From positions 868,001-932,000 of the forward strand of contig NZ_FNQB01000002.1 in the NCBI RefSeq assembly GCF_900107455.1: a stretch of DNA of 64,000 nucleotides. The letters run 5' to 3'. Positions 12,555-29,462 of the stretch are shown one piece after another. The stretch is from Asanoa ishikariensis (GTDB lineage: Bacteria; Actinomycetota; Actinomycetes; Mycobacteriales; Micromonosporaceae). Below the pieces are notes generated by a model. The model ran no database searches and was not told the DNA's origin. It worked only from the letters and a program-made list of their open reading frames with translations. Position 1 is the first letter of the stretch. Each line of letters starts with the position of its first letter. A program made the position numbers and the translations under genes.

Positions 12555-13421
12555 GTGTCGGGTCTCGCTGTCGCATGTCGCCGGGTGGTGCACATCTATC
12601 GTGCCGAGGCGGGCGATGTCGTCGCCCTCTCCGGTGTCGACCTGTCGATCGGTCCCGGCGAGATGCTCGCGCTGGTCGGCCCGTCGGGTTCAGGCAAGTC
12701 CACGTTGGTCGCGCTGCTCGCCGGGCTCATGCGCCCGTCCGCCGGGCGGGTCAACGTCGGCACCTTCGACCTAGGCAAGCTCAGCGACGCCGAGATCTCG
12801 CGGCTGCGCGGCACCCAGATCGGTGTGGTGCTCCAGGGCGCCGCCCGCAACCTGTTGCCGTACGCGTCGCTGGAGCGCAACGTCTGGCTCGCCCAGCGCC
12901 GCGCCGCCCGCACCGAGGGCATCGAGCTCGAAGATCCGGAGCGCATCCTCGACCTGGTCGGCCTGCGCGGCAAGGGCGCGGCGCGGCTGACCGACCTGGC
13001 GCCCGGCGCCCGCCAGCGCGCCGCGCTCGCGGTCGGCATCGCCGCGTCGCCCGGCCTGCTGCTGGTCGACGAGCCGACCAGCCAGCTCGACTCGCACGGC
13101 CGCGACGAGGTGCTCGACGCGCTGGAGACGGTCAACGCCGAGCGCGGCACCACCGTCGTCGTGGTCACCCACGACGCCGAGGTCGGCGCGCGCCTGGGCC
13201 GGGCGGTCACCATCCGCGACGGCCGGGTCGGTGCCGAAGGACGCGGGGGCCAGGACTTCGCCGTGGTCGCCGGCGACGGCACCGTGCAACTACCGCCCGA
13301 CGTGCTCGGCCACTTCCCGCCCGGCACCCTGTTCACCGTCGACCAGGCCGACGGCAGCGTGACCCTGGTTCCCGGCGGTGCCGCCCAGCTCCCGGAGTCG
13401 CACACCGGCGACGCGGCGTAA
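12555..13421 (+). CDS. ABC transporter ATPase with extra C-terminal domain (module 2)
   Basis: A 288-residue paralogue of the ATPase at 8.65 kb. Walker A is GPSGSGKST, the variant signature is LAPGARQRAAL, Walker B is LLLVDEPTSQLD and the H-loop is VTHD. The post-ATPase tail again carries the AbrB-like pattern (DGTVQLPPDVLGHFPPGT, then DGSVTLVP). The GTG at 12555 has no good Shine-Dalgarno. It leads a three-gene run with the next permease only 7 bp downstream. Gene order here is ATPase-permease-permease, against permease-ATPase-ATPase in module 1, so the two modules look like rearranged duplicates that may form mixed complexes. Confidence 0.92.
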   Translation: MSGLAVACRRVVHIYRAEAGDVVALSGVDLSIGPGEMLALVGPSGSGKSTLVALLAGLMRPSAGRVNVGTFDLGKLSDAEISRLRGTQIGVVLQGAARNLLPYASLERNVWLAQRRAARTEGIELEDPERILDLVGLRGKGAARLTDLAPGARQRAALAVGIAASPGLLLVDEPTSQLDSHGRDEVLDALETVNAERGTTVVVVTHDAEVGARLGRAVTIRDGRVGAEGRGGQDFAVVAGDGTVQLPPDVLGHFPPGTLFTVDQADGSVTLVPGGAAQLPESHTGDAA

Positions 13422-13428
13422 CCCGCGG

Positions 13429-16400
13429 ATGTTCGGAGTCGTTCGGGGCGCGCTGCGGGCGCGCCGTGCACAGGCCGCCACGGTGCTCGTGCTCACCGGC
13501 CTCGCCGTGGCCGTCGCCGCCGCCGCGCCCTGGTACGTCCGAGCCGCGGAACGCTCGGTCGCGGTGGCCGATGTCGACGGTGCCCGTTCCAGCGAGCTGG
13601 TGGTGCGGATCGCCGGCCAGGTCGAGGGCGCGATCGCGGCCGGTGGCCGCGTGCGTCCGGGGGCCGACGTGGTCTCCGAGGTCGACCAGCAGGCCGGCGC
13701 TTTGGTCGACGTCCCCGGGGCCGACAGCACCGTGTCCCTGCGCGAGACCGGCGCGATTGTCTCTGAGTTGGCCCGGGTGAGCCTACGGGTGGTCTACCGC
13801 GACGACATGTGCGAGCACCTGGCGGTCGAGGGCACCTGCCCGCGCGCCGCCGGTGAGGTGCTGCTCAGCCGGCGCACCGCGCAGGCGCTCCAGGTGAAGG
13901 CCGGCGACAAGGTCGACTTCGTGCTGTCCTCACAGCCGCCGATCGAGTTCACCGTCGTCGGCATCTACCAGTTGTCGGATCCACTCGGCCAGTACTGGGC
14001 GCTGACCGACTTCGGCGGTTCGTCGGCACTCGACCCTGGCGCGGACGGGCCCGGCGACCCGGCCTTCGTCGGCTCCGACACCGTCGCGGCACTGCCGATC
14101 AAGGAGATCTCGGCCGACTACCACGTGCGGATCCCGCCCGGCATGTTCCTCGACGACCTCGCCGGGCTGCGTGCCGACCTCGCGCCGGTCGGCCGGGACA
14201 ACGGCGCCTGGCGGGTCAACACCGACGCCGTCACGCTGGCCAACCGGATCGACCGGGAACGTGACCTCGTCAGCCTCGGCGTCGGCGTGGCGGCCGTACA
14301 ACTGCTGGTGCTCTGCTGGTTCGGGCTGTTCTTCGCGGTCCGGCACACGGCCGAGCAGCGCCGGCCCGACATCGGCCTGCTGAAACTGCGTGGTGCCGCG
14401 CGGTGGCGGCTCTGGCACCTGGCGATCGCGCAGAGCGCGGTGCCGATGCTGTTCGGCGCGGTGATCGGTGCGGCCGCCGGGCTCGGTATGGCAAGGCTGG
14501 TCGCCGGCAACGTCCAGGAGACCGGCTCGGCCGCGATCCTGTCCGGCATCGCCGCGCTCGCGGCCCTGGCCGGCGCTGTGCTCGCGGCGGTCGCCGCGGA
14601 CGCCGGCGGCATGCGCGCACCGGTGACCGACCTGCTCCGGCATGTGCCGTCCCGGCGCCGCGGCTGGCGGGCCGAGGTGGTCGACCTGGTCATCGTGCTG
14701 GTCGCCGCGGCCGGCCTCTACCAGAGCTACGCGACCTCGGTCGAGCGCGACGACACGACCGGCCTCTCGCTGCTCGCGCCCGCGCTGGTCGCGGTCCTCG
14801 TCGCGCTCGCCGCCGGCCGGCTGCTCACCCCGTTGGCCGGCCGGGTCGGCCGGCGCGCGCTGCGATCCGGCCGGGTCCCGGCGGCGCTCGGCGCCACCCA
14901 GCTCGCCCGGCGGCCGGGCACGCACCGCGTTTTCGCGTTGCTGGTCATCGCCGTCGCGCTGCTCGGCACCGCGATCGGCGGCTGGACCGCGGCCAGTGAC
15001 AGCCGGGTCGAGCGGGCCCGCCACGAGCTCGGCGCCGACCGGGTGCTCACGGTCCAGGCCCGCAGCCGCGCACAGCTCGTCGCCGCCGTGCGTGCCGCCG
15101 ACCCCGGCGGCCGGCAGGCGATGGCTGTGGTGCGCGGCCTCAACGGCCCCGCGACGGTGCTGCTCGCCGTCGACTCGGCCCGCTTCGCGGCGGTCGCCGA
15201 CTGGCAGCCGGTGTACGGAGGCCCGCCGCCCGCCACCCTGGCCGACCTGCTCCACCCCGCGGCACCCGCCGCACTGTCCACCGCCGACGGCGAGCTGACC
15301 CTCGACGTCGAGGTCAAGCTGCTGCCCGCACCCCTGGCACCCTTGGAACCGGGCGACACCGGCGGTGCCGCGGGTGGTGCCGCCTCGGCCGTGGCCGAAC
15401 CCCTGCTCGTCCTGCTGCACCTGATGGACCCGGCCGGCGACCAGATCACCGTGCGGTTCGGCCCGGTCAGCGGCCCGCGGGCCAGCTACACCGCGACGCT
15501 GAGCGGTTGCGGTGGCGGCTGCCGGGTGCTCGGCATCGAGCCGGTGAACCGCAACTTCGCCGGCCGCTCGGTGGTGCCGGAGCCGGGGACGACGGTCACC
15601 GTCTTCGGGCTCTCCGGTGCCGGCGGGCCGGTCCTGCCGCCCGCCGCACTCGCTGACGTATCGCGCTGGCGGGCCGGAGTCGGCGCCGACATGGTCGGCC
15701 CCAACCTGACCATGGCGGACGGCGCACTCACCATCACCGCCGTCCGCGCCGCGCGCGAGTCCGACCGGGCCACCCGGGTCTACGCCGTCGACGCGCCCGC
15801 GCCGCTGCCGGTGGTCTCCACCGACAACGCGCCGACACCGGCGGCCGGCGACCCCCGGCTGCCCGTCTTCGGGGGTGAGGACGTGCCGATCCGCAAGGTC
15901 GGTGTCGTAGGCACCCTGCCCACCGCCGGCCGGTTCGGCTACCTGATGGACCTGGAATACGCGGACCGGATCGCCGAGAACCCCGGCACCGAGGACGTGC
16001 CGCAGGTCTGGCTGACCGCCGACGCCGCACCCGACATCGTCGACCGGCTGCGGGCCGGCGGGGTGACCGTGATCTCCGACGAGACGTCGGCCAGGTTGAC
16101 CGACCGGTTCGGCCGCGAGGCACCACCGGCCGCGTTGGGCTTCCAGCTCGTCGCCGCCCTCGCCGGACTGCTGCTCACCGCCGGCGCGTTCATCGTGGTG
16201 GCCGCCGTCGAACGCCCCGAACGGGCGGCCGAGCTCGCCGCGTTGCGCGCACAGGGCCTGCCACCGCGAGTCGTCAGCCGGGTCGCCTGGGGTGGTTACC
16301 TCGGGCTCGCATTGGCGGCGATCGCGCTCGGCATCGGCGCGAGCGCGCTGGCCCAGGCGGTCACCCGCCGGCCGATCCCGCTCTTCGTCGACGGCTGGAA

Positions 16401-16536
16401 CGTGCTGCCGGTCGCCGCTGGCCCACAGTTCGTCCCGCTCGGCCTGGCCCTGCTCGGCGCGCTGCTGGTCGTCGGCACGGCCGGCGCGGCGGCCGCGACG
16501 CTGCTCGTCCGCGCGGTCGACGAGGAGTCCGCGTGA
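13429..16536 (+). CDS. Giant FtsX/MacB-like ABC transporter permease (module 2, first)
   Basis: A 1035-residue paralogue of the 5.6-kb permease. An N-terminal helix (residues 18-38) is followed by a long extracellular segment, central helices around 290-410 and 430-490, a helix near 510-530, a second large extracellular region, and three helices near 910-1030. The cysteine positions recur as MCEHLAVEGTCPRAAGE and CGGGCRVLGIE. I start it at ATG 13429, 7 bp after the ATPase stop; in-frame codons further upstream would overlap the ATPase. The stop overlaps the next permease by four bases (GTGA). Function is inferred only from fold and partners: an ATP-driven envelope exporter or mechanotransmission complex. 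Confidence 0.87.
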   Translation: MFGVVRGALRARRAQAATVLVLTGLAVAVAAAAPWYVRAAERSVAVADVDGARSSELVVRIAGQVEGAIAAGGRVRPGADVVSEVDQQAGALVDVPGADSTVSLRETGAIVSELARVSLRVVYRDDMCEHLAVEGTCPRAAGEVLLSRRTAQALQVKAGDKVDFVLSSQPPIEFTVVGIYQLSDPLGQYWALTDFGGSSALDPGADGPGDPAFVGSDTVAALPIKEISADYHVRIPPGMFLDDLAGLRADLAPVGRDNGAWRVNTDAVTLANRIDRERDLVSLGVGVAAVQLLVLCWFGLFFAVRHTAEQRRPDIGLLKLRGAARWRLWHLAIAQSAVPMLFGAVIGAAAGLGMARLVAGNVQETGSAAILSGIAALAALAGAVLAAVAADAGGMRAPVTDLLRHVPSRRRGWRAEVVDLVIVLVAAAGLYQSYATSVERDDTTGLSLLAPALVAVLVALAAGRLLTPLAGRVGRRALRSGRVPAALGATQLARRPGTHRVFALLVIAVALLGTAIGGWTAASDSRVERARHELGADRVLTVQARSRAQLVAAVRAADPGGRQAMAVVRGLNGPATVLLAVDSARFAAVADWQPVYGGPPPATLADLLHPAAPAALSTADGELTLDVEVKLLPAPLAPLEPGDTGGAAGGAASAVAEPLLVLLHLMDPAGDQITVRFGPVSGPRASYTATLSGCGGGCRVLGIEPVNRNFAGRSVVPEPGTTVTVFGLSGAGGPVLPPAALADVSRWRAGVGADMVGPNLTMADGALTITAVRAARESDRATRVYAVDAPAPLPVVSTDNAPTPAAGDPRLPVFGGEDVPIRKVGVVGTLPTAGRFGYLMDLEYADRIAENPGTEDVPQVWLTADAAPDIVDRLRAGGVTVISDETSARLTDRFGREAPPAALGFQLVAALAGLLLTAGAFIVVAAVERPERAAELAALRAQGLPPRVVSRVAWGGYLGLALAAIALGIGASALAQAVTRRPIPLFVDGWNVLPVAAGPQFVPLGLALLGALLVVGTAGAAAATLLVRAVDEESA

Positions 16537-19500
16537 TCGCTCTGGTGACCTTGATGCTCACGGCCCGCCGGGCGCAGGCGGCGCTGGTGGTGCTGCTCAG
16601 CGCGTTGGCCACGGCAGCGGCCGTGGCCGGCCCCGTCTACACGGCCGCGGTCGACCGGGCCTCGGCGGTCGCCGAGGTGGCCAACACCCCGCCGGCCGAG
16701 CGCACGGTGTCGATCCAGGCCGGGATCGACAGCACCCAGCGGGACCGGTTCGACGCGGTGGCCAACGACCTGGCCGAGCTGCCCCGGTTCGACACCGTGC
16801 TGACCGCGGTGGTGCCGGTGCTCGGCCTCGACAGCGAGCCGGGCGAGATCGCCTGGATGACGTTCCGTGACGGCCTCTGTGACCACGTGCGGATCGTCGC
16901 CGGGCGCTGCCTGATGGCGGCCGGTGAGGTCGTGGTCGGCGAGGCCACGGCCCACCGACTGGGCCTGACGCCCGGCCGGTCGGCCATGTTGAGCTGGGCC
17001 CGCTACGACAACATCAGCCGGACCTGGGTGATCGCCGGCCGGCCGGCCCCGACCACCGTCGTCGGCGTCTACCAGCCCGTCGACCGGGCCGAGCCGTACT
17101 GGGGGCGCAGCGGGTATTTCGCACCGACCGCGCCGGACACCACCGCGGAGCCGCTGTTCGCCGGGCGGCCGACGGTCGACGGGCTCGAGCACGACTCCGA
17201 CAACCGCACTGTCGAGGCGATCCCCGGTCCGGGCGCGTTCGACGCCGACCACCTGCCGGAGCTGTCCGCCGCGCTCGACGAGCTGAGCGAGGACCTGGGC
17301 TCCAACGACGAGACGGCCCGCTTCGCTTCGCTCATCGACGAACTGCCCAACCTCTTCGAGCGCGTACGCCGTTCCGACCAGCTCACCCGCGAGCTGGTGC
17401 CGTTGGCCGGGCTGCCGCTGATCGGCCTGTGCTGGCTGGTCATCTTCGTCGCGGTGGCCGGCGCGACCGCCGCCCGCCGGCACGAGCAGGCGCTGATCGC
17501 GCTGCGCGGCGCGCCCAGGGTCGGCCGGTTCTGGCTCGCCGCCGGGGAGAGCGTGATCGCGATCGCGGTCGGTGCTCCGCTCGGCTACCTGGCCGGGACC
17601 CTGGCCACCCGGGCGGTCGCCAACGCCCGATTCGGCCCGATCCCCGTCTTCGACCTCACGCCGGCGCCGGGCGCGGTGTCCGCAGCCCTGATCGCGGTCG
17701 CCGGAGCGGTGCTGGTCGGGCTGCTCGCGCTCCGCCGTGACCTGGCCAGCCCGGTGGTCGACCTGCTGCGTCGGGTGCCGCCGCGGGGCGCCGCGTGGCG
17801 GACGATCGCGATCGACGCCGCCGCGGTCGTGCTCGCCGTGCTGGCCGCCGTGCAGCTTCGCGCGTTCGACGGGCAACTGCTCGGGCTCGGCCTGCTGGTG
17901 CCGGGGCTGATCGGCCTGGCGATCGCGGTGCTCACCGGCCGGCTGCTGGTGCCGCTCGCCGCCCGGCTCGGCCGCCGCGCGGTCCAGCGCGGCCGGCTCG
18001 GGCTCGCCCTCGGTGCCCTCCAGGTCGCCCGCCGGCCCGGCAGCCAGCGCCTGTTCGTGCTGCTGGCGGTCGCGGTCGCCGTGCTCGGCTTCGCCACCAC
18101 CGCGGTCGACGTGGCCGACCAGGCGCGTGCCGACCGGGCCGCGGTGCAGACTGGCGCCATCCGCACGCTGACCGTGCCACCGACCGACTCGGGCACGCTG
18201 CGGGCCGCGGTGCGGGCGGTCGACCCGGACGGCCGGTTCGCGATGGCGGTCGGCACCCGGCAGGTGGTCGACGGGCCGCCGGTGCTCTTCGTCGACACCG
18301 CCGCCCTGCCTGACGTGGCGATCTGGCGGCCGGAGTACGGCGACCGCTCGCCCGCCGAGGTAGCCGACGAGTTGCGCCCACCGGCAGACGAACCGATCGT
18401 GGTCAAGGGCTCGGAGCTCGCTCTGACCGTGGACTATGCCGCGCCGGCGACGGTTGGCTCGGCACCACCGGCGACCCGCACGGAACTGCGGCTGACCGCG
18501 TTGCTGCGCCCACTGACCGGCGGCGCGCCGGTGCGCGCCGGCAGCGCCGAGATCGAGCCCGGCCGGCACACCTGGGAGCTGGCCAGCCAGGCCTGTGTCG
18601 ACGGCTGCCGGCTGGCCGGGATCGAAGCGGTCTACGAGGCGGCCGGCGGTGAGGCGGCCGAGCTGTCGATCGTCTCCTTGGCCGCGCGCGCCGACCGGTC
18701 CCAGCCGTTCACCGACGTGGTGCCGGCTTTCACGACCGACAAGTGGCGGGCCGGCGACGACGCCAAGGTGACCGCGGAGGACGGTGGCGTGCACGTGGTC
18801 GTGCCCGGTGCGGTCATTCAGCCTCGGCCGACCGTGCTGCTGCCGGCCGGCACACCCGCCGACGTACCGGTGCTCAGCGGCGGCCCACCGCCCAAGTCCG
18901 GTGAGGCCGAGGGCGTCGACGGCAACGTGGTGGCGATCCGGCCGGTCGCGCAGGGTCGCGCACTGCCCCGGATCGGCACGGGCCTGCTGATGGACCTCGG
19001 GTACGCCGAGCGCCTCGCGACCGGCAACACCGACCTGGCCACCGCCGAGGTCTGGCTCGGGTCGGCGGCTCCGCCCGACATCGAGCAGCGGTTGGCCGAG
19101 CGGGGACTAGTGGTGATCGGCCGGGACTCGATGACGGCGGCCGCCGACCGGCTCGACGGGCGTGGCCCGGCGCTCGCGGTCTGGTTCCACCTGCTGGCCG
19201 GCGGGGTCGCGGTGCTGCTCGCCGCGTGCGGCATGTGGCTGATGGCGGCCGTCGACCGCCGGCGGGTCCTCGACGACATGGTCGCCCTGCGACGGCAGGG
19301 ACTCGCGGCGCGTACCGGCGGAAGCTGGGTGCTCTGGGCCTATCTGCCGGTCGCCGTCGCGGCCGTGGTCACCGGTTTGGTGGCGGCCGTCATCGCCTGG
19401 GCGGTCGTCGGCCGGTATGTCCCGTATTTCGTCGATGATGACTTCGCGCTCGCGGCGCCGACCTGGCCCGGGCCCATCGCGATCGCCCTGCCGGCGGTAG

Positions 19501-19565
19501 CAGCGGCCCTGCTATTCACCACGGTGGCGGTCGGTCTGCGTCGCGCGCTGCGCGTGCGAGACTAG
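16533..19565 (+). CDS. Giant FtsX/MacB-like ABC transporter permease (module 2, second)
   Basis: A 1010-residue third paralogue with the same layout: an N-terminal helix at about residues 15-35, extracellular domain, helices around 290-400 and 425-480, a further helix near 505-525, a second extracellular domain, and C-terminal helices around 885-1005. Cysteines match the family as LCDHVRIVAGRC and CVDGCRLAGIE. The GTG start sits in a GTGA overlap with the preceding permease, so the pair is co-translated and probably heterodimerises. The stop TAG at 19563-19565 lies six bases before the thioredoxin-like gene. No substrate can be proposed from sequence alone. Confidence 0.87.
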   Translation: MIALVTLMLTARRAQAALVVLLSALATAAAVAGPVYTAAVDRASAVAEVANTPPAERTVSIQAGIDSTQRDRFDAVANDLAELPRFDTVLTAVVPVLGLDSEPGEIAWMTFRDGLCDHVRIVAGRCLMAAGEVVVGEATAHRLGLTPGRSAMLSWARYDNISRTWVIAGRPAPTTVVGVYQPVDRAEPYWGRSGYFAPTAPDTTAEPLFAGRPTVDGLEHDSDNRTVEAIPGPGAFDADHLPELSAALDELSEDLGSNDETARFASLIDELPNLFERVRRSDQLTRELVPLAGLPLIGLCWLVIFVAVAGATAARRHEQALIALRGAPRVGRFWLAAGESVIAIAVGAPLGYLAGTLATRAVANARFGPIPVFDLTPAPGAVSAALIAVAGAVLVGLLALRRDLASPVVDLLRRVPPRGAAWRTIAIDAAAVVLAVLAAVQLRAFDGQLLGLGLLVPGLIGLAIAVLTGRLLVPLAARLGRRAVQRGRLGLALGALQVARRPGSQRLFVLLAVAVAVLGFATTAVDVADQARADRAAVQTGAIRTLTVPPTDSGTLRAAVRAVDPDGRFAMAVGTRQVVDGPPVLFVDTAALPDVAIWRPEYGDRSPAEVADELRPPADEPIVVKGSELALTVDYAAPATVGSAPPATRTELRLTALLRPLTGGAPVRAGSAEIEPGRHTWELASQACVDGCRLAGIEAVYEAAGGEAAELSIVSLAARADRSQPFTDVVPAFTTDKWRAGDDAKVTAEDGGVHVVVPGAVIQPRPTVLLPAGTPADVPVLSGGPPPKSGEAEGVDGNVVAIRPVAQGRALPRIGTGLLMDLGYAERLATGNTDLATAEVWLGSAAPPDIEQRLAERGLVVIGRDSMTAAADRLDGRGPALAVWFHLLAGGVAVLLAACGMWLMAAVDRRRVLDDMVALRRQGLAARTGGSWVLWAYLPVAVAAVVTGLVAAVIAWAVVGRYVPYFVDDDFALAAPTWPGPIAIALPAVAAALLFTTVAVGLRRALRVRD

Positions 19566-19571
19566 GGAACC

Positions 19572-20504
19572 ATGAGCGAACCACGGACCTCTCCGTCGAT
19601 CTTCACCCGCGGTGCGGTCGATCTCGGCGCACTGCGGCCGTCCGGATCACCGTCCCCGGCGGCCGGTGCTGGTGCGGGCGGGCCGGCCGGACCACCGGCC
19701 GAGCAACCCGCGTTCTCACCCTCCGGCGGCGGCAACGCGGCCGTGATCGAGGTGACCGAGGCGACCTTCCAGACCGAGGTCCTCGAACGTTCCATGACGA
19801 CACCCGTGGTGATCGACTTCTGGGCCGAGTGGTGTGAGCCCTGCAAGCAGCTCTCCCCGGTGCTGGAGAAGCTCGCGATCGAGGGCGCCGGCGCCTGGAT
19901 CCTGGCCAAGATCGACGTTGACGCCAACCAGCGGCTCGCGCAGATGTTCCGGGTGCAGGGCATCCCGATGGTCTTCGCCGTGGTCGGTGGCCAGCCCGTC
20001 GACGCGTTCTCCGGCGTCGTGCCCGAGGCGCAGCTCCGCCAGTGGATCGGCGCGGTGCTCAAGGCCGGCGGCGTCGAGGTCGAGGCACCGGCCGACCCGC
20101 GGCTCGAGTCCGCCGACGACGCGCTGATGGTCGGCGACCTCGACGCGGCCGAGGCGGCCTACAAGAAGATCCTGTTCGAGGCGCCGGCCGACGCGGCCGC
20201 CGAGGCCGGGCTCGCCCAGGTCGGCCTGTTCCGGCGGGTGCAGGGCGTCGACGCGGCGGCAGCGCTGACCGCGGCGTCCGCGGCCCCCGACGACCTCGAG
20301 GCCCAGATGCTCGCGGCCGACGTCGAGGTGCTCGGCGGCGAGGCCGAGCGTGCCTACAAGAGACTGGTCGACCTGGTCCGGCGCAGCGTCGGCGACGACA
20401 AGGAGACAGTCCGCAAGCATCTGGTGACGTTGTTCACGATCGCCGGACCCGACGACCCGGCGGTCTCCGCGGCCCGCCGGGCCCTGGCAAGCGCGCTGTT
20501 CTGA
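19572..20504 (+). CDS. Thioredoxin-TPR protein, YbbN/CnoX-like co-chaperone
   Basis: A 310-residue cytoplasmic protein. After a Gly/Ala/Pro-rich linker (to about residue 55) comes a thioredoxin fold with the active-site motif WCEPCK (Cys88, Cys91) and the cis-proline segment QGIPMVFAV. The C-terminal half (about 170-310) is alpha-helical with TPR-like repeats, as in YbbN/CnoX. Those proteins hold unfolding clients and protect cysteines during oxidative stress. Here the CxxC is intact, so redox activity is possible, unlike in E. coli YbbN, which lacks it. The ATG at 19572 follows the permease stop by six bases. The GTG of the arginase-like gene follows this stop by four bases, so the two are probably cotranscribed. 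Confidence 0.88.
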   Translation: MSEPRTSPSIFTRGAVDLGALRPSGSPSPAAGAGAGGPAGPPAEQPAFSPSGGGNAAVIEVTEATFQTEVLERSMTTPVVIDFWAEWCEPCKQLSPVLEKLAIEGAGAWILAKIDVDANQRLAQMFRVQGIPMVFAVVGGQPVDAFSGVVPEAQLRQWIGAVLKAGGVEVEAPADPRLESADDALMVGDLDAAEAAYKKILFEAPADAAAEAGLAQVGLFRRVQGVDAAAALTAASAAPDDLEAQMLAADVEVLGGEAERAYKRLVDLVRRSVGDDKETVRKHLVTLFTIAGPDDPAVSAARRALASALF

Positions 20505-20508
20505 GCCG

Positions 20509-22323
20509 GTGAGCGCCGTGCGCCGGATCGCACTCCTGGACGCGCCGTCGAACCTGGGCCTACGACCGCCCACGCCGACGTCAACTCCTGGCTGCGCCAA
20601 GGCGCCCGGCGCTCTCCGCGACCACGGCCTGCTGGGCCGGCTGGTCGCCCGCGACGCGGGCTGCCTGACCCCACCGAGGTACGACCCGGGCGACTGGCGA
20701 CCCGGCGACGGGGTCTGCCACGCCGACGCGATCGCCGCGTACTCGGTGGCCTTGGCCGGTCGCATCGGCGCGATCATCGACGCCGACGAGTTCCCGGTGG
20801 TCCTCGGCGGCGACTGCTCCATCCTGCTCGGCTCGGCCCTGGCCATGCACCGCCTCGGCGAGGCGGTCGGCGGCCGGATCGGCCTCGTCTTCGTGGACGG
20901 GCACTCCGACTTCCGGCACCCCGGCAACGCCTCCTATGTCGGCGCGGCGGCCGGCGAGGACCTGGCCCTGGCGACCGGTCGCGGCCAGGCCGAGCTGGCC
21001 GCCATCGAAGGCCGAAGACCCTACTTCCGCGACATCGACGTGGTGGTGCTGGGCATCCGCGCCCAGGACGAGTACCGGCTGGACCTCCAGGCCGCCGGCA
21101 TCCTGACCCGCCCGGTGCCGGCCCTGCGCGCCGAGGGCGCGGCACGCTCCGCGCAGTGGGCACGCGACCAACTCGCCGACTGCGCGGGCTACTGGGTGCA
21201 CGTCGACGTCGACGTCCTGGACCCGGCCGTGATGCCCGCGGTCGACGCGCCCGATCCGGGTGGGATCGCCTTCACCGAGCTCGAGCTGCTGATCGCCGGC
21301 CTGGTCGACACCCCGCACTGCCTGGGCATCGAGCTCACCGTCTTCGACCCGGACTACGACCCGGACGGCGCGTACGCGGCCGAGATCGTGAGCTCCCTTG
21401 TCGCCGGTCTGGCTCCGATCCGCGCGGCCGCCTCCGCTTCGACCAGGTCACCGCTGGCCTTCACCCAACGCCGCCGCCCGGCGCCCGACGCTGACCGGTT
21501 CCGCCCGCCGCTGACGGCCGTCGAACCCGACCCGGAGCCGGCTGCGGTGGCCGTCCTCGCCCCGGTCGTCGAGCCGCCGGCCCCGTCGGAGCCGGAGCCG
21601 GAGCCGGTGGAAGAGCCTGAAGAGGTGGTGGCGCCGGCCGCCGAGGAGGAGAGCCCGTCTCCCGAGCGGAAGAAGCCCACGATCGGGCGCCAACGCCGGT
21701 CCGCCTTCGACGTGATCCCCGGCGACGCCGGCAAGCGCCGTTCGGCGGCCGACATCCTGGCCGCGCCGCTCGGCGGCGACTCGACCGGTCCGGGCCGCCT
21801 ACGCCGCACCACCGACGGCGAGGCCGTCCGGTCCGGCGGCCTGCGGCGCGCTACCGACGGCGATGCCGCCACTGACGTCCGTCCGGGCGGCCTGCGGCGC
21901 GCTACCGACGGCGAGGCCGTTCGGTCCGGCGGCCTGGGGCGCGCTACCGACGGCGATGCCGCCGCTGACGTCCGTCCGGGTGGCCTGGGGCGCGCTACCG
22001 ACGGCGAGGCCGCCACTGATGTCAGGCCGGGCGGCCTGCGGCGCGCTGCCGACGGTGAGGCCGCCGCTGACGTCCGTCCGGGTGGCCTGCGCCGCAGGCC
22101 CGCGGCGGACGGCGATGCCGTGCCCACCGATGTGCGGCCGGGCGGCCTGCGCCGTAAGGATTCGCCGGCCGACGCCGACGCCGACGCCGTCACGACCGAC
22201 GCGCGGCCGGGCGGGCTTCGCCGGAAGACGTCACCCGATGACGGGGACGCGGTCGCGCTGGACGTCCGGCCGGGTGGCCTGCGCCCCGATACCGACGAGC
22301 CGCCGGCCGCGGACGAGGGCTAG
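20509..22323 (+). CDS. Arginase-fold protein fused to a long acidic/repetitive tail
   Basis: 604 residues. Residues 1-315 form a ureohydrolase (arginase/agmatinase) domain: Asp130, His132 and Asp134 in VDGHSDFRHP, Asp233 and Asp235 in VDVDVLDPAVMP, and Glu275 in GIELTVFD. The first metal-ligand motif reads GGDCS, with Cys103 where arginases have His; from memory, DcsB of the D-cycloserine pathway has a similar change. Residues 320-425 are Pro/Glu-rich and probably disordered. Residues 428-604 hold about ten degenerate units of the form RPGGLRRATDGEA(A)DV. I know of no ureohydrolase with such a tail. The substrate (arginine, agmatine or another guanidino compound) is unknown. The start is GTG at 20509, four bases after the thioredoxin-like gene. 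Confidence 0.8.
   Translation: MSAVRRIALLDAPSNLGLRPPTPTSTPGCAKAPGALRDHGLLGRLVARDAGCLTPPRYDPGDWRPGDGVCHADAIAAYSVALAGRIGAIIDADEFPVVLGGDCSILLGSALAMHRLGEAVGGRIGLVFVDGHSDFRHPGNASYVGAAAGEDLALATGRGQAELAAIEGRRPYFRDIDVVVLGIRAQDEYRLDLQAAGILTRPVPALRAEGAARSAQWARDQLADCAGYWVHVDVDVLDPAVMPAVDAPDPGGIAFTELELLIAGLVDTPHCLGIELTVFDPDYDPDGAYAAEIVSSLVAGLAPIRAAASASTRSPLAFTQRRRPAPDADRFRPPLTAVEPDPEPAAVAVLAPVVEPPAPSEPEPEPVEEPEEVVAPAAEEESPSPERKKPTIGRQRRSAFDVIPGDAGKRRSAADILAAPLGGDSTGPGRLRRTTDGEAVRSGGLRRATDGDAATDVRPGGLRRATDGEAVRSGGLGRATDGDAAADVRPGGLGRATDGEAATDVRPGGLRRAADGEAAADVRPGGLRRRPAADGDAVPTDVRPGGLRRKDSPADADADAVTTDARPGGLRRKTSPDDGDAVALDVRPGGLRPDTDEPPAADEG
21790..22305 (+). repeat. Degenerate tandem repeats encoding the arginase-fusion tail
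   Basis: About ten in-frame units begin with RPGGLRR or RSGGL(R/G)R and continue with (A/T)TDG(E/D)A. Spacing is 14 or 17 residues in the first six units and then 20-23 residues. The nucleotide core GGCCTGCGGCGCGCTACCGA recurs almost exactly in the early units, showing recent expansion by slippage or recombination. All spacings are multiples of three. The units are translated and vary in length, so this is a protein repeat and not a CRISPR array. Confidence 0.9.
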
Positions 22324-22368: not shown

Positions 22369-24297
22369 TCAGTGCAGGGCGCGGATGAAGCGTTCCGCGG
22401 CCGGGACCGCCGTCGTGCCGCTGCCGCCGCCGTTCTCGACGAAGACCGCGAACGCGATGTCGCCCTGCCAGCCCACGAACCAGGCGTGCGTGTGCTCCGG
22501 GTTGTCGTCGAACTCCGCCGTGCCTGTCTTGCCGGACACCGCGCCGCCCGGCACGTCCTTGAGGGCCGTCGCCGTCCCCGACGTGACCACCTGCCGCATC
22601 ATCGACTTCAGTGGTCCGAGCGCGTCGGCCTTCAACGCAGAACCGTCGCCGGCACCCGGCCGGTCCGACAGGACCTTCGGCGTCACCGCCGCGCCCTTCG
22701 CCACCGACGCCGTCGCGGATGCCATCGACAACGGCGACACCAGCGTCGTGCCCTGGCCGAAGGCCGCCGCCGCCCGCTCCGCCGCCGAGCCGCCGGTCGA
22801 CACCTTGCCGCTGAACGCGTCGACGCCCAGGTCCCACTTGGCCTCCAGGCCGAGCGCCCGGCCGGCCGCCGCCAGGCCGTCGTCGCCGAGGGAGGGCGCG
22901 AGAGACGCGAACGCCGTGTTGCACGACTTGGCGAAGTCGACCTGGAACGGCACCTTGCCGAGGGCGAAGTTCTCCGAGTTCTTGAACGACCGGCCGTCGA
23001 CGGTGAAGGTCTTCGGGCAGTCGACCGCCGTCGACGCGGTGACCTTGCCGCTCTCCAGCAGGCCGTAGCCGCTGACCACCTTGAACGTCGAGCCCGGCGG
23101 GACTTGCGCGGTGAACGCCAGGTTCTCGCCGCTGCCGCCGTCGGGGCCGTTGGCGGCCGCGAGCACCGCGCCGTCGCTGACCCGCACGGCCACGAGCGCG
23201 GACCGCTGCTTGAGGCCCGCCAGGGCGGTGTCGGCGGCGTTCTGCACCGAGACGTCGAGCGTGGTCTTCACCGGCGTGCCGGGCTTGGCCTCCGACCGCC
23301 ACAGCTCCTCGCCGTCGGTGACCTCGCCGTCCGGGCCCTTGTTCGCGATCACGACGGAGACGCCGGGCGTACCCCGTAGCTGCTTGTCGAGCGCACCCTG
23401 GAGGCCGCCGTGGCCGACCAGGTCACCCGCGGCGACCTCGTCCGGCCGTTTGTCGATGTCTTCCTTGAGCGCCGGGTCGGCCGAGCCGAGCAGCGCGCGG
23501 GCGAACGCCCTGGTCGGGGCCAGGTCGCGCTTCTCCTCGCGGAACCGGGTGCCCTCCAAAGGCTGGATCTTGGATCGGATCTGCAGGTACGCGTCCCGGC
23601 GCAGCGACACGACCTCGAGGAACTGCTCCGGATCCTCCGCCGAGGTGATCCGCTTAGGCAGGTCCGACACGTCGATCTTGGGCAGTGCGGGCCGCACCGA
23701 CTTGAACGCCGAGTCCAACGCCCGGGCGATGCCCGCGGGGTCGTCGACGCCAGCCGGCTCGACGCCGACCACGACCACGTCGCGGGGCTCGACGATCGGC
23801 TTGCCGGCGCCGTCCAGGATGCCGGCCCGTTCCGGTCGTTGGCGCCGCAGCGCGAGCTGGTCGCCGCTCTTGAGCTTGGCGTTGAGGATCGCCGGCTCCC
23901 AGATCACCGACCAGACGTCGTCGTTGCCCTGGATCAGCCGGACCGTGGACGGATAGGTCCAGTGCGTGCCGCCCGGCAGCGTCCAGTCGAGGGTGATGGC
24001 CGCGGTCGCGCTGCCCTCGACCTCCTTCGGGTCGCCGTCCCGGCGTACCGCCGGCGGGGTCTTGAAAAGCTCCCCGGACAGCTCCTTGAGCGCCGTCGTG
24101 ACCTCGGTGGCGGCGACCTTGGAACCGGTCGGCTCGACGAACGCGATCTGGCTGAGGTCGCCGGACTTCCACGCGGACAGGAACCCGTCGACGGCGTCGT
24201 CGGGACCAGGGTCGCTGGAACATCCGGCCAGGCCGGCCGCGACGAGCGCCAGCCCGGCCAGCAGCGCAGTGGGACGTCTTGTCATCGACCGACGCAT
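22369..24297 (-). CDS. Penicillin-binding lipoprotein, MecA/PbpLipo-like transpeptidase
   Basis: A 642-residue class B penicillin-binding protein. The signal peptide ends in a lipobox (AGLAGC, Cys26), so it is predicted to be lipid-anchored outside the membrane. A MecA-type NTF2-like domain (about 30-150) and a dimerisation domain precede the transpeptidase. Catalytic motifs are STFK (Ser403), SCN (458-460) and KTG (590-592), all intact. It crosslinks peptidoglycan, and this architecture is associated with low beta-lactam affinity. The closest described relative I recall is mycobacterial PbpLipo (Rv2864c). ATG 24297 is chosen because AAGGA lies about 9 bases upstream; an internal ATG at 24285 is the alternative. 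Divergent from the glutamate dehydrogenase gene across 170 bp. Confidence 0.93.
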   Translation of the reverse strand: MRRSMTRRPTALLAGLALVAAGLAGCSSDPGPDDAVDGFLSAWKSGDLSQIAFVEPTGSKVAATEVTTALKELSGELFKTPPAVRRDGDPKEVEGSATAAITLDWTLPGGTHWTYPSTVRLIQGNDDVWSVIWEPAILNAKLKSGDQLALRRQRPERAGILDGAGKPIVEPRDVVVVGVEPAGVDDPAGIARALDSAFKSVRPALPKIDVSDLPKRITSAEDPEQFLEVVSLRRDAYLQIRSKIQPLEGTRFREEKRDLAPTRAFARALLGSADPALKEDIDKRPDEVAAGDLVGHGGLQGALDKQLRGTPGVSVVIANKGPDGEVTDGEELWRSEAKPGTPVKTTLDVSVQNAADTALAGLKQRSALVAVRVSDGAVLAAANGPDGGSGENLAFTAQVPPGSTFKVVSGYGLLESGKVTASTAVDCPKTFTVDGRSFKNSENFALGKVPFQVDFAKSCNTAFASLAPSLGDDGLAAAGRALGLEAKWDLGVDAFSGKVSTGGSAAERAAAAFGQGTTLVSPLSMASATASVAKGAAVTPKVLSDRPGAGDGSALKADALGPLKSMMRQVVTSGTATALKDVPGGAVSGKTGTAEFDDNPEHTHAWFVGWQGDIAFAVFVENGGGSGTTAVPAAERFIRALH

Positions 24298-24467
24298 GGC
24301 AACAATCCTTCCCCCGGAAACATCAGGGACCCTAGTACGCGACGCAAAACGGGTATGAGCACCAGTACTCAGGAAGGCCCGATCCGACGCGGAACCTTTA
24401 CCGGGACCGCCGTACGCTGACGGGATTGGGCCCCACAACGTGGTGGGTTTCGAGGGGAGTGGCACCG

Positions 24468-27400
24468 ATGGACCGGCGTCCCACGCGTACGTCGCAGAGC
24501 ACGGCACGGACCCGCGGCGGTGCGCGCCGCCTAGACCGGCCGGACCTGACCGAGGAGTACGACACCGCGCTAGACGACGACGCCGATGTCGTCGCGCCTG
24601 TCGGAGCCGGCACGGCCACCGCGACCGCGACCGCCGACGACGGTGACGAGAGCGAGCTCGACGAGCCGGTGCCCAACGCCGAGCGGCTGGTCGCCGAGGC
24701 GGTCACACTGGCCGGCCCGGGCAGTCCGGAAGCGGCCCTGGTGGCCCGATTCTGGCGGTTCGCTCCCGACGAGGAGCTGGTCGGCTGCACCGCGCAGGAG
24801 ATGGCCGACGCCGTCGAAAGCCACCGCGACCTGGCCGAACAGCGGATGCCGGGGCAGCTCAAGCTGCGGATCACCGACCCGGTAGCCGACCTGCCACACA
24901 CCGTGATCGAGATCGTCATCGACGACATGCCGTTCCTGGTCGGCTCGGTCACCGCCCTGCTCACCGGCCGGCACCTGGACGTCCACCTGCTCGTGCACCC
25001 GCTGGTCGTGGTCCGCCGCGAGCCGATGGGCAAGCTGGTCGAGGTGGCCGCCGAGGTCGAGCCCGACGACGCCATCGACGGCGACATCGTGGAGAGCTGG
25101 ATGCGCGTCGAGATCGACGCGATCCGGCACGCCTCCGAGCGTGAACAGCTCGAACGCGAGCTCGTGCGGGTGCTGACCGACGTACGCGAGGCGGTCGAGG
25201 ACTGGCCCAAGATGCGGCAGAAGGCCCTCGCGATGGCCGACGAGCTGTCCGCCACCCGCACCACCGACTCCCGCCCGCCGGTGCCGGAGAAGGACATCAC
25301 CGACTCGGTCGAGCTGCTCCGCTGGCTGGCCCACGAGCACTTCACGTTCCTCGGCTACCGGGAGTACCGGCTGGTGCCGGGCGACGGCGGCGAGCAGCTC
25401 CTCGCCGCCCAAATGGGCACCGGGCTCGGCATCCTGCGCCAGGACCAGACCACCCCGCTGGCCTTGAGTGCTCTGCCGCCCGAGGCGCGGGCCAAGGTGC
25501 TGGAGAAGCGGCTGCTGATCATCACCAAGGCCAACTCCCGGGCCACGGTGCAGCGCTCCGCGTACCTCGACTACATCGGTTTCAAGGTCTTCGACGACAA
25601 GGGTGAGGTGATCGGCGAGCGCCGGTTCCTCGGCCTGTTCTCCAGCGCCGCCTACCGCACCAGCGTGCGCGAGCTGCCGGTGGTGCGCCGCAAGGTCGCC
25701 GAGGTGTTCGACCGCTCCGGGCTCTCGCCGCGCAGCCACTCCGGCAAGGATCTGCTCCAGATCCTGGAGACGTACCCGCGCGACGAGCTCTTCCAGATCA
25801 AGACCGATGACCTCTACCGCGCGGTGATCGGCGTGCTGCGGATGGCCGGGCGGCGCCAGCTCCGGGTGTTCGTCCGCCGCGACGGCTACGGCCGGTTCAT
25901 CTCGTGCCTGATCTACCTGCCCCGCGACCGGTTCACCACGCACAACCGGCTGCGCATGCAGGAGATCCTGCTGCGCCGGTTCAACGGCGTCGGGCTGGAC
26001 TACACGACCCGGGTCACCGAGTCGCTGCTGGCCCGGGTGCACGTGGTCGTGCGGACCGACCCGACCAACCCGCCCGGCGTCGTCGACATCGACGCGCTGG
26101 CCGAGGAACTGGCGGACGCCACCCGGCTCTGGGACGACGACTTCAACCTGATGCTCGGCCGCAAACTCGGCGACGAGCAGGGCAAACAGCTCTTCGCGCG
26201 GTACGCGGGCGCGTTCCCGGACGGCTACAAGGAGGAGAACAGCCCGTACGAGGCGTTCAAGGACCTGGCCAAGCTGGAGCTGCTGGAAGAGCCCGGCCAG
26301 CTCGAGATGCACCTGTTCCGGAAGAACCGCGACGACCTCGACGTGCGGTTCAAGGTCTTCCGGTACGGCGAGCCGATGGTGCTCTCCGCCGTGCTGCCGG
26401 TGCTGCACTCGCTGGGCGTGCGGGTCGCCGACGAGCGGCCGTACGAGGTCGAGCGGGCCGACGGCACCGTCTACCTCTACGACTTCGGCCTGGAGCTGCC
26501 CGACGGCCAGACGCTGCCGACCGCGGTCCGGCCCCATGTGGAGAACGCTTTCGCGGCGGCCTGGCGCGGTGAGGCCGAGGTCGACGGCTTCAACCAGCTC
26601 GTCCTGCTGGCCGGGCTGACCTGGCGGCAGGCGGTGATCCTGCGGGCGTACGCGAAGTACCTGCGCCAGGCGGGCACGGTCTTCTCGCAGGACTACATGG
26701 AGTCGACCTTCGTCGCGTACCCGGAGATCGCGACCCGGCTCGTCGAGCTGTTCGAGGTGCGCTTCTCTCCTCGGCTGGCGCTGGACGAGCCCGAGCGTGC
26801 CGAGCGCGCGGCGACGCTGGTCGACGAGATCGGCAAGCGCCTCGACGACGTGAACAGCCTCGACCAGGACCGGATCCTGCGGTCCTACCTGACGCTGATC
26901 CAGGCGACCCTGCGCACCAGCTTCTTCCAGCGGGGCAGCGACGGACGACCGAAGTCGTACGTGGCGTTCAAGCTCGACCCGCAGGCGGTGCCGGACCTGC
27001 CGGCGCCGCGGCCTCGTTTCGAGATCTTCGTGTACTCGCCTCGGTTCGAGGGTGTGCACCTGCGGTTCGGGCCGGTCGCTCGGGGCGGGCTGCGCTGGTC
27101 CGACCGGCGTGAGGACTTCCGCACCGAGGTGCTCGGGCTGGTCAAGGCGCAGATGGTGAAGAACGCCGTGATCGTGCCGGTGGGCGCCAAGGGCGGCTTC
27201 GTTCTCAAGCAGAAGCCGGGCGACCGTGACGAGGCGGTCATCTGCTACAAGCTGTTCATCACCGCGCTGCTGGACGTCACGGACAACATCGTCGGTGGCG
27301 ACATCAAGCACCCCACGGATGTCGTACGCCATGACGGCGACGACCCCTACCTGGTGGTGGCCGCGGACAAGGGCACGGCGACGTTCTCCGACCTCGCCAA

Positions 27401-29462
27401 CGCGATCTCGGTGGCGCACGGGTTCTGGCTGGGTGACGCGTTCGCGTCGGGCGGCTCGGCCGGCTACGACCACAAGAAGATGGGCATCACCGCCCGCGGT
27501 GCGTGGGAGTCGGTCAAGCGGCACTTCCGCGACCTGGGCACCGACATCCAGACCACCGACTTCACCGTGGTCGGCGTCGGCGACATGTCCGGCGACGTGT
27601 TCGGCAACGGGATGCTGCTCTCGCCGCACATCCGGCTGGTGGCCGCGTTCGACCACCGGCACATCTTCCTGGATCCGTCCCCGGTCGCTTCCTCGTCGTT
27701 CGCCGAGCGGCGCCGGCTGTTCGACCTGCCGCGCTCGTCGTGGGCCGACTACGACGCTTCGCTGATCTCGTCCGGTGGCGGGATCTTCGCTCGTACCCTC
27801 AAGTCGATCCCGATCTCCCCGCAGGTCCGGGACGCGCTGGGGCTGGGCGAGGAGGTCACCGCCATGTCTCCGTCGGACCTGCAGAAGGCGATCCTGCAGG
27901 CGCCGGTCGACCTGCTGTGGAACGGCGGCATCGGCACGTACGTCAAGGCCACGTCGGAGACGCACGCCGAGGTCGGCGACAAGTCCAACGACGCGATCCG
28001 GGTCAACGGCAAGCAGGTGCGCGCGCGGGTCGTGGGCGAGGGCGGCAACTTGGGCCTGACCCAACTCGGCCGCATCGAGTACGCGGTGCGCGGCGGCCGG
28101 GTCTACACGGACTTCATCGACAACAGCGCCGGCGTCGACTGCTCCGACCACGAGGTCAACATCAAGATCCTGCTGGGCGGCGCGGTAGCCGACGGCGAAC
28201 TGACCGTGCCCGACCGCGACGCGCTGCTGGCCGAGATGACCGACGAGGTCGCCGACCTCGTGCTGCGCGACAACTACAGCCAGGCCACCGCGCTCGGTAC
28301 CGCGATCGTCCAGGCCGAGTCGCTGCTGCCGGTGCACCGCCGGCTGATCACCGACATGGAACGCTCGGGGCTGCTCGACCGTTCTTTGGAGGGCCTGCCC
28401 ACCGACGAGGAGCTGGCGACGCGCCCCGGCGGCCTGACCGCGCCGGAGTTCGCGGTGCTGCTCGCGTACGTGAAGATCGACCTCGAAAACCAGGTGCTCG
28501 CGGACCCGCTGGTCGACGAGCAGTGGACCTTCGAGGTGCTGGCGGACTACTTCCCGACCCCGCTGCGCGCCGCGTACGCGGACCGGATGGCCAGCCACCG
28601 CCTGCGCCGCGAGATCGTCACCACGTCGCTGGTCAACGAGGTCGTCAACCGCGGCGGCACGTCCTTCGTCTACCGCGCGATGGAGGAGACCGGAGCATCG
28701 GCCGCCGACGTCATCCGGGCGTTCGTGGTGGCCAGGGAGATCTACGGCCTGCGCCGGATCTGGGAGTCGGTGGAGGCACTGGACAACTCGGTGCCGACGG
28801 TCGCGCAGACGAAGGTCTACCTGGAGCTGCGCCGGTTGCTCGACCGTGCGGTCCGCTGGCTGGTCACCAACCGCCGCTCGCCGCTGGACGTGACGGGCGA
28901 GATCGCCCGCTTCGCGGCGGTGTCGGACCTGCTCGGCGAGCTCGACACGAGGTTCGTGGGTGCCGAGCGCGAGTCGCTGCTGTCGCACATGGAAGAGGTC
29001 GAGGCGCGCGGCATGCCGGCGAGCCTGGCAACGGCGATAGCCCGGGTGATGTACGGCTTCGGCCTGATCGACGTGGTCGAGACGGCCCGGGTCACCGCCC
29101 GCGCCCCGGGCGACGTGGCACAGGTGTATTTCGTCCTGAGCGACCGGCTGCGGGTCGACGCACTGCTGTCGAAGATCTCGCTGCTGCCACGCGAGGACCG
29201 CTGGCAGACCCTGGCCCGGATGGCGCTGCGCTACGACCTCTACGCGGCCCTGGCCGCGCTGACGGCAGGCATCCTCCAGTCCACACCGGACGGATCGCCG
29301 GTCGAGGAACGGGTGGAAGCCTGGGAGGCAGCCAACGCCACGGCGGTTGGTCGGGCCGAACGCGCGATCAACGAGTTCGGCGAGTCGAACGCGGACCTGG
29401 CCGCCCTGTCGGTCCTGTTACGCCAGATCCGCCAGTTGGTCCGCCAGTCCTCCGCGAACTGA
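24468..29462 (+). CDS. gdh: NAD-specific glutamate dehydrogenase, large (about 180-kDa) type
   Basis: 1664 residues, matching the large GDH family first studied in Streptomyces clavuligerus. It deaminates glutamate to 2-oxoglutarate with NAD+, mainly for catabolism. An Ala/Asp-rich start precedes ACT-like regulatory regions in the N-terminal half. The catalytic core lies near residues 870-910 (RGGLRWSDRREDFRTEV, then KNAVIVPVGAKGGF), with the dinucleotide-binding region following (VVGVGDMSGDVFGNGML). ATG 24468 has GAGGGGAG upstream; an in-frame TTG at 24426 is less likely. TACGCT at 24413-24418 may be the -10. A very long open frame on the opposite strand inside this gene is a GC-codon artefact. 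Transcription ends at a strong hairpin (29473-29501). Confidence 0.95.
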   Translation: MDRRPTRTSQSTARTRGGARRLDRPDLTEEYDTALDDDADVVAPVGAGTATATATADDGDESELDEPVPNAERLVAEAVTLAGPGSPEAALVARFWRFAPDEELVGCTAQEMADAVESHRDLAEQRMPGQLKLRITDPVADLPHTVIEIVIDDMPFLVGSVTALLTGRHLDVHLLVHPLVVVRREPMGKLVEVAAEVEPDDAIDGDIVESWMRVEIDAIRHASEREQLERELVRVLTDVREAVEDWPKMRQKALAMADELSATRTTDSRPPVPEKDITDSVELLRWLAHEHFTFLGYREYRLVPGDGGEQLLAAQMGTGLGILRQDQTTPLALSALPPEARAKVLEKRLLIITKANSRATVQRSAYLDYIGFKVFDDKGEVIGERRFLGLFSSAAYRTSVRELPVVRRKVAEVFDRSGLSPRSHSGKDLLQILETYPRDELFQIKTDDLYRAVIGVLRMAGRRQLRVFVRRDGYGRFISCLIYLPRDRFTTHNRLRMQEILLRRFNGVGLDYTTRVTESLLARVHVVVRTDPTNPPGVVDIDALAEELADATRLWDDDFNLMLGRKLGDEQGKQLFARYAGAFPDGYKEENSPYEAFKDLAKLELLEEPGQLEMHLFRKNRDDLDVRFKVFRYGEPMVLSAVLPVLHSLGVRVADERPYEVERADGTVYLYDFGLELPDGQTLPTAVRPHVENAFAAAWRGEAEVDGFNQLVLLAGLTWRQAVILRAYAKYLRQAGTVFSQDYMESTFVAYPEIATRLVELFEVRFSPRLALDEPERAERAATLVDEIGKRLDDVNSLDQDRILRSYLTLIQATLRTSFFQRGSDGRPKSYVAFKLDPQAVPDLPAPRPRFEIFVYSPRFEGVHLRFGPVARGGLRWSDRREDFRTEVLGLVKAQMVKNAVIVPVGAKGGFVLKQKPGDRDEAVICYKLFITALLDVTDNIVGGDIKHPTDVVRHDGDDPYLVVAADKGTATFSDLANAISVAHGFWLGDAFASGGSAGYDHKKMGITARGAWESVKRHFRDLGTDIQTTDFTVVGVGDMSGDVFGNGMLLSPHIRLVAAFDHRHIFLDPSPVASSSFAERRRLFDLPRSSWADYDASLISSGGGIFARTLKSIPISPQVRDALGLGEEVTAMSPSDLQKAILQAPVDLLWNGGIGTYVKATSETHAEVGDKSNDAIRVNGKQVRARVVGEGGNLGLTQLGRIEYAVRGGRVYTDFIDNSAGVDCSDHEVNIKILLGGAVADGELTVPDRDALLAEMTDEVADLVLRDNYSQATALGTAIVQAESLLPVHRRLITDMERSGLLDRSLEGLPTDEELATRPGGLTAPEFAVLLAYVKIDLENQVLADPLVDEQWTFEVLADYFPTPLRAAYADRMASHRLRREIVTTSLVNEVVNRGGTSFVYRAMEETGASAADVIRAFVVAREIYGLRRIWESVEALDNSVPTVAQTKVYLELRRLLDRAVRWLVTNRRSPLDVTGEIARFAAVSDLLGELDTRFVGAERESLLSHMEEVEARGMPASLATAIARVMYGFGLIDVVETARVTARAPGDVAQVYFVLSDRLRVDALLSKISLLPREDRWQTLARMALRYDLYAALAALTAGILQSTPDGSPVEERVEAWEAANATAVGRAERAINEFGESNADLAALSVLLRQIRQLVRQSSAN

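Follow-up and report, generated by a model that had tools for sequence, protein, structure and literature searches.

An arginase-fold protein from Asanoa ishikariensis consists of a catalytic domain, a hypervariable linker, and ten copies of a short peptide, the core of which, PGxLR[RP], recurs in most of the long tails carried by its orthologues in the Micromonosporaceae. The peptide is under purifying selection, changes in copy number between species, and is absent from some lineages. On balance, we regard this protein as probably an arginase-fold metal hydrolase that a disordered linker tethers to a docking peptide, PGxLR[RP], which forms an array in Asanoa.

Gene and protein architecture

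The gene lies in the 64,000-nucleotide stretch of DNA analyzed here (the window), part of a genome of 9.09 Mb. The open reading frame listing and translation place it at 20509..22323 on the forward strand, with a GTG start and a product of 604 aa, of which residues 303-604 form a 302-residue tail made up of a Pro/Glu-rich linker and then a heptad array. The features of the locus are as follows, with the supporting evidence in parentheses.

19572..20504, forward strand: thioredoxin-TPR (CnoX-like) gene, its stop 4 nt before the enzyme start (PF00085 and PF14561)
20509..21414, forward strand: arginase-fold catalytic domain, residues 1-302 (PF00491, 2eiv alignment, orthologue motif table, fold match)
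21415..21783, forward strand: Pro/Glu-rich linker, predicted to be disordered, residues 303-425 (hypervariable in the interspecies tail comparison, low pLDDT)
21688..21771, forward strand: Asanoa-conserved block RQRRSAFDV...KRRSAADILAAPL, residues 394-421, just before the array (in 6/6 Asanoa tails)
21787..21807, forward strand: first motif copy, GPGRLRR (copy 1 in 6/6 Asanoa; same form in sister genera)
21829..22287, forward strand: nine later copies, R[PS]GGL[RG][RP], starting at 21829, 21880, 21922, 21973, 22024, 22075, 22135, 22204, and 22267 (heptad positions, DNA tandem repeat)

The ten heptads begin at residues 427, 441, 458, 472, 489, 506, 523, 543, 566, and 587, 14-23 residues apart, and follow the consensus R-P-G-G-L-R-R, with copy 1 reading GPGRLRR. 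The preliminary description of this DNA, as encoding a 604-residue arginase-fold protein of which nearly half is a Pro/Glu linker and about ten repeats at that spacing, was confirmed in full by the reading frame, the Pfam match, and the heptad positions. At the DNA level the array is a strong tandem repeat (TRF score up to 418, periods 93 and 51). Third-position GC is 0.92 in the core, 0.90 in the linker, and 0.83 in the repeats, and this high value along the whole gene fits a translated frame in the Asanoa genome. Charge alternates along the tail in a pattern that recurs every 17 residues (autocorrelation of -0.25 at lag 9 and 0.35 at lag 17), which bears out the alternation of basic and acidic patches noticed earlier. 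Disorder prediction, proposed as a check on the tail, gave AlphaFold2 pLDDT values of about 32-45 there versus 70-89 in the better-scoring core regions, and the tail is predicted to be intrinsically disordered, with a short helix predicted by AlphaFold2 in the Asanoa-conserved block that precedes the array.

An altered active site on the arginase fold

The Pfam Arginase domain (PF00491) matches residues 22-296 (E=6e-27), and comparison with solved structures returned arginases at a Z of about 20. The core contains the metal-site motifs GGDC (C103), DGHSD (D130, H132, D134), and DVDVLDP (D233, D235). Alignment to the arginase of T. thermophilus (2eiv) indicates that five of the six arginase metal ligands are kept, namely, D130, H132, D134, D233, and D235, while the sixth, arginase His101 in GGDH, is Cys103 in the window protein and is likewise Cys (GGDC) in its orthologues. 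Further arginase residues are replaced in the same alignment (His141 by Ala148, Glu277 by Val278, Thr246 by Ala247, and Asn130 by Arg136), and the motif table showed this replaced pattern to be common to nearly all orthologues, tailed or tail-less. The core thus resembles RocF and ARG1 in fold and in five ligands but differs from them in the equivalents of His101, Asn130, His141, Thr246, and Glu277, as well as in its score against the curated NCBI arginase equivalog model, which at 78.2 bits falls far below the cut-off of 227.6. Since the counterparts of His101, His141, Thr246, and Glu277 are missing, classical arginase (EC 3.5.3.1) activity is unlikely, and the label "arginase" on Micromonosporaceae orthologues is, judging from sequence, probably wrong. 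The earlier view, that of a genuine ureohydrolase with guanidino compounds as substrates, is not supported either, because several catalytic residues of arginase have been replaced.

The N-hydroxy-L-arginine hydrolase DcsB (6LUG), which belongs to a cycloserine gene cluster, was also among the solved-structure matches. DcsB has a Cys at the position of the MnA-ligand His and no His141 equivalent, and the window core shares both this pattern and the arginase fold. The two differ in that the DcsB match, obtained for an orthologue, is a distant one by sequence (E about 1e-9 to 1e-5) and that solved DcsB is a 281-residue chain. We infer that the active site would be DcsB-like rather than arginase-like.

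Nine core positions (116, 120, 142, 169, 174, 189, 202, 230, and 270) are fixed among orthologues with the peptide and differ in tail-less ones, a contrast that is confounded with phylogeny. One tail-less orthologue (L061, genome G018) has DGNSD for DGHSD and so loses the metal-ligand His equivalent to H132. The genome that contains the window also encodes a second, tail-less GGDC arginase-fold protein that is 41% identical (L002, G000:C5:455041-455853). A search for viral relatives found none.

Tail and peptide across the Micromonosporaceae

The catalytic domain is present in 197 of the 200 Micromonosporaceae genomes sampled, with 57-99% identity among the orthologues compared. All six Asanoa species have tails of 221-471 residues, with 10, 5, 14, 4, 5, and 5 motif copies, and most other genera, including Micromonospora, Actinoplanes, Phytohabitans, and Plantactinospora, have tails as well; tails of at least 60 residues range from 64 to 1,232 residues (median, 178) and are hypervariable in sequence. 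In some genera the tail is 13-56 residues long and lacks the motif, basal genera have 0-1 residues beyond about position 302, and orthologues from other families stop at about residue 302. The tail evidently originated inside the Micromonosporaceae, since basal genera and other families end near this point. A tree of 113 catalytic domains, in which branches are long and the root is uncertain, clusters the tail and motif states and points to several gains or losses. Given its presence in 6/6 Asanoa species (221-471 residues, 4-14 copies) and most sister genera, the tail is a conserved feature rather than a recent addition; the refuting outcome named in the preliminary description, orthologues in close relatives ending at about residue 320, does not hold, since a terminus near residue 302 is confined to basal members of the family and to orthologues in other families.

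Of the 131 distinct tails that reach 60 residues or more, 101 contain PGxLR[RP], and 99 have it within their last 80 residues. Shuffled tails gave an expectation of 0.56, a figure that accounts for composition and not phylogeny, the 131 tails coming from one family and not being independent. More weight falls on the codons, which at the core motif positions switch among several synonyms and yet encode amino acids that change little or not at all; this was seen in 39 Micromonospora-type and 10 Actinoplanes copies and again in 43 Asanoa copies. This pattern indicates that purifying selection acts on the peptide, which is not a by-product of DNA slippage. The Pro, Gly, and Leu of the motif are as conserved as the Arg. 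The remaining 30 tails lack the motif, several of them in Micromonospora, and it is evidently dispensable in some lineages. The motif count excludes four tails, one that has unread bases and three in which the reading frame appears shifted. The tails of L192, L108, and L199 (Phytohabitans flavus and P. suffuscus), read in frame, turn Arg-rich soon after their start, which looks like a frameshift, whether a sequencing error or a genuine mutation.

The conserved unit is usually a single copy near the C-terminus, some 10-70 residues before it. Its forms by lineage are as follows.

Micromonospora, Plantactinospora, and others: EPVGPPASAGPG(L/R)LRR
Actinoplanes: PLGSAPLLDSEPLPATRPGMLRPRP
A Phytohabitans clade: FEPFGPPAKAGPGRLRRPKK
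The clade grouping with Asanoa: ADRIAPRGSAKPGRLRRP
Asanoa: GPGRLRR plus RPGGLRR arrays

The Asanoa array is this single motif in amplified form, and amplification into an array evidently took place in a species of the Phytohabitans clade as well, independently of Asanoa. The repeat unit as first described needs dividing: its short peptide, PGxLR[RP], is conserved across genera, whereas its acidic TDGEA spacers are not conserved beyond Asanoa. Scans for RPGGLRR, GPGRLRR, and AGPG[LV]LRR in the window's genome and nine relatives found the peptide in plausible coding frames almost only in the enzyme; almost all other matches were in frames that do not look coding, and the sole plausible exception was a winged-helix-like protein with PGGLRR (L129). 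A literature search on the enzyme tail or the PGxLR[RP] motif returned nothing.

Possible partners and functions of the tail

The gene directly upstream encodes a protein with PF00085 at residues 58-159, a CxxC of the form CEPC, and PF14561 (TPR_20) at residues 224-310. The pairing of an N-terminal thioredoxin with a C-terminal TPR domain, which this protein has, defines CnoX/YbbN proteins, holdases, some of them redox active, that pass clients to GroEL and DnaK (PMC6282202). Coupling of the enzyme to a thioredoxin-TPR gene, as first described, is upheld by the 4-nt gap in the window and by the presence of a CnoX-like gene upstream in 56 of 61 family loci (flank of about 1.5 kb). Of the other five, three (L040, L045, and L055) have their match no more than 100 bases from where a contig begins, one (L065) is a 42%-identity relative and not an orthologue, and in one (L054) the neighbour is truly absent. 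In other families, the orthologues retrieved showed no CnoX-like gene next to them. The enzyme has conserved cysteines (C29, C52, and C103), and given the holdase and, in some cases, redox activity of CnoX proteins, a plausible candidate link between the two proteins is that of chaperone and client or a redox relation.

Other observations were made in the neighbourhood. The CnoX-like protein has a conserved N-terminal peptide, SIFTRGAVDL[GS]ALR, before a variable Gly/Pro/Ala linker (19572-19730), so that each product of the coupled pair has a conserved end-peptide attached through a variable linker. Directly upstream of the CnoX-like gene, 13378-19565 encodes, side by side, two large permease-like proteins of the FtsX type, 1052 and 1010 aa long. 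Downstream of the enzyme lie a convergent gene for a MecA_N-type penicillin-binding protein (22369-24507) and, beyond it, one for a large NAD-glutamate dehydrogenase (PF05088 and ACT domains; 24426-29462).

Several functions can be envisaged for the tail. The array may self-condense in sticker-and-spacer fashion, with the alternating basic patches (LRR) and acidic patches (DGEA) of an oligomeric enzyme adhering to one another. The 17-residue charge periodicity, the predicted disorder, and the multivalent arrays in Asanoa and L107 are consistent with this explanation, which we nevertheless regard as unlikely given that most relatives have a single motif, that the acidic spacers are unconserved beyond Asanoa, and that the invariance of P, G, and L, going beyond charge, suggests a shaped pocket.

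Somewhat less likely is that the Arg-rich peptide serves as a pseudosubstrate, entering the active site of its own subunit or of another one to regulate it or to be modified there. Arginase-fold pockets bind guanidinium groups, and the motif keeps an Arg at its first LR position; however, the equivalents of the guanidinium-contacting residues Glu277 and Thr246 are replaced, and tail-less orthologues have identical active-site motifs. AlphaFold2 also gave no rise in pLDDT at the motif that would point to docking on the enzyme's own core, either for the window protein or for a short-tailed Micromonospora orthologue, in models of low alignment diversity and mean pLDDT of 51-54. We hold in equally low regard the explanation that the motif, being basic, attaches nonspecifically to nucleic acid or to anionic membrane: the repeated Arg pairs would suit such binding, but the tail is net acidic (54 D+E versus 46 K+R), and charge alone would not need Pro, Gly, and Leu to be kept like Arg.

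Neutral repeat expansion, leaving a functionless tail, would account for the variation in copy number between species and for a recent block duplication in L008, yet it is very improbable in view of a motif that many genera keep while its codons change almost exclusively in a synonymous way. The tail is very probably functional. Encapsulin targeting is the most remote candidate; the motif loosely resembles cargo-loading peptides of the GSLRR type, but because shell genes are missing (the window's genome encodes neither a PF04454 nor a PF19307 protein, PF04454 occurs in 0/6 Asanoa, and only 16 of 121 family genomes have an encapsulin), it is excluded for Asanoa and refuted as a general role.

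In the partner-docking model that we favor, the role of PGxLR[RP] is most likely to dock in a pocket of a single dedicated partner protein, which would position the enzyme, with the fast-evolving linker supplying only reach and spacing. The 30 tails without the motif and the common family origin of the sequences weigh against this model, whereas the lack of predicted docking on the enzyme's own core counts neither way. Multiplication into an array would raise avidity or allow one enzyme chain to gather several partners. The adjacent CnoX-like protein would be the first candidate partner, on genomic grounds only.

An arrangement of core, tether, and peptide is a known architecture, and what is new here is an arginase-fold enzyme bearing PGxLR[RP]. 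Short motifs repeated along a disordered chain, as in EPYC1 and CsoS2, can give multivalent partner binding; the Asanoa enzyme has such a chain, but its repeats form part of the enzyme polypeptide, relatives mostly carry a single copy, and any condensate or partner is putative. In SSB, partners are bound by a short peptide at the end of a disordered linker (PMC7145534). Like SSB and FtsZ, the enzyme combines a structured core, a hypervariable disordered linker, and a short constrained peptide near the C-terminus; unlike them, it has an enzyme fold as its core and a basic peptide (PGxLRR) that is preterminal and, in Asanoa, amplified into an array, and docking to a partner is what we infer.

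The broader proposition treats PGxLR[RP] as a docking motif, so far undescribed, that takes a family-wide enzyme to a dedicated partner and whose copy number (1 to 14) is tuned between species by tandem duplication; in our judgment it is evenly balanced. If true, it would provide a natural copy-number series for studies of multivalency in an enzyme, and one that is near-universal and highly conserved in an antibiotic-producing family. Evolution has marked which few residues matter in an otherwise scrambled tail, which should make for a simple partner search with natural valency variants at hand.
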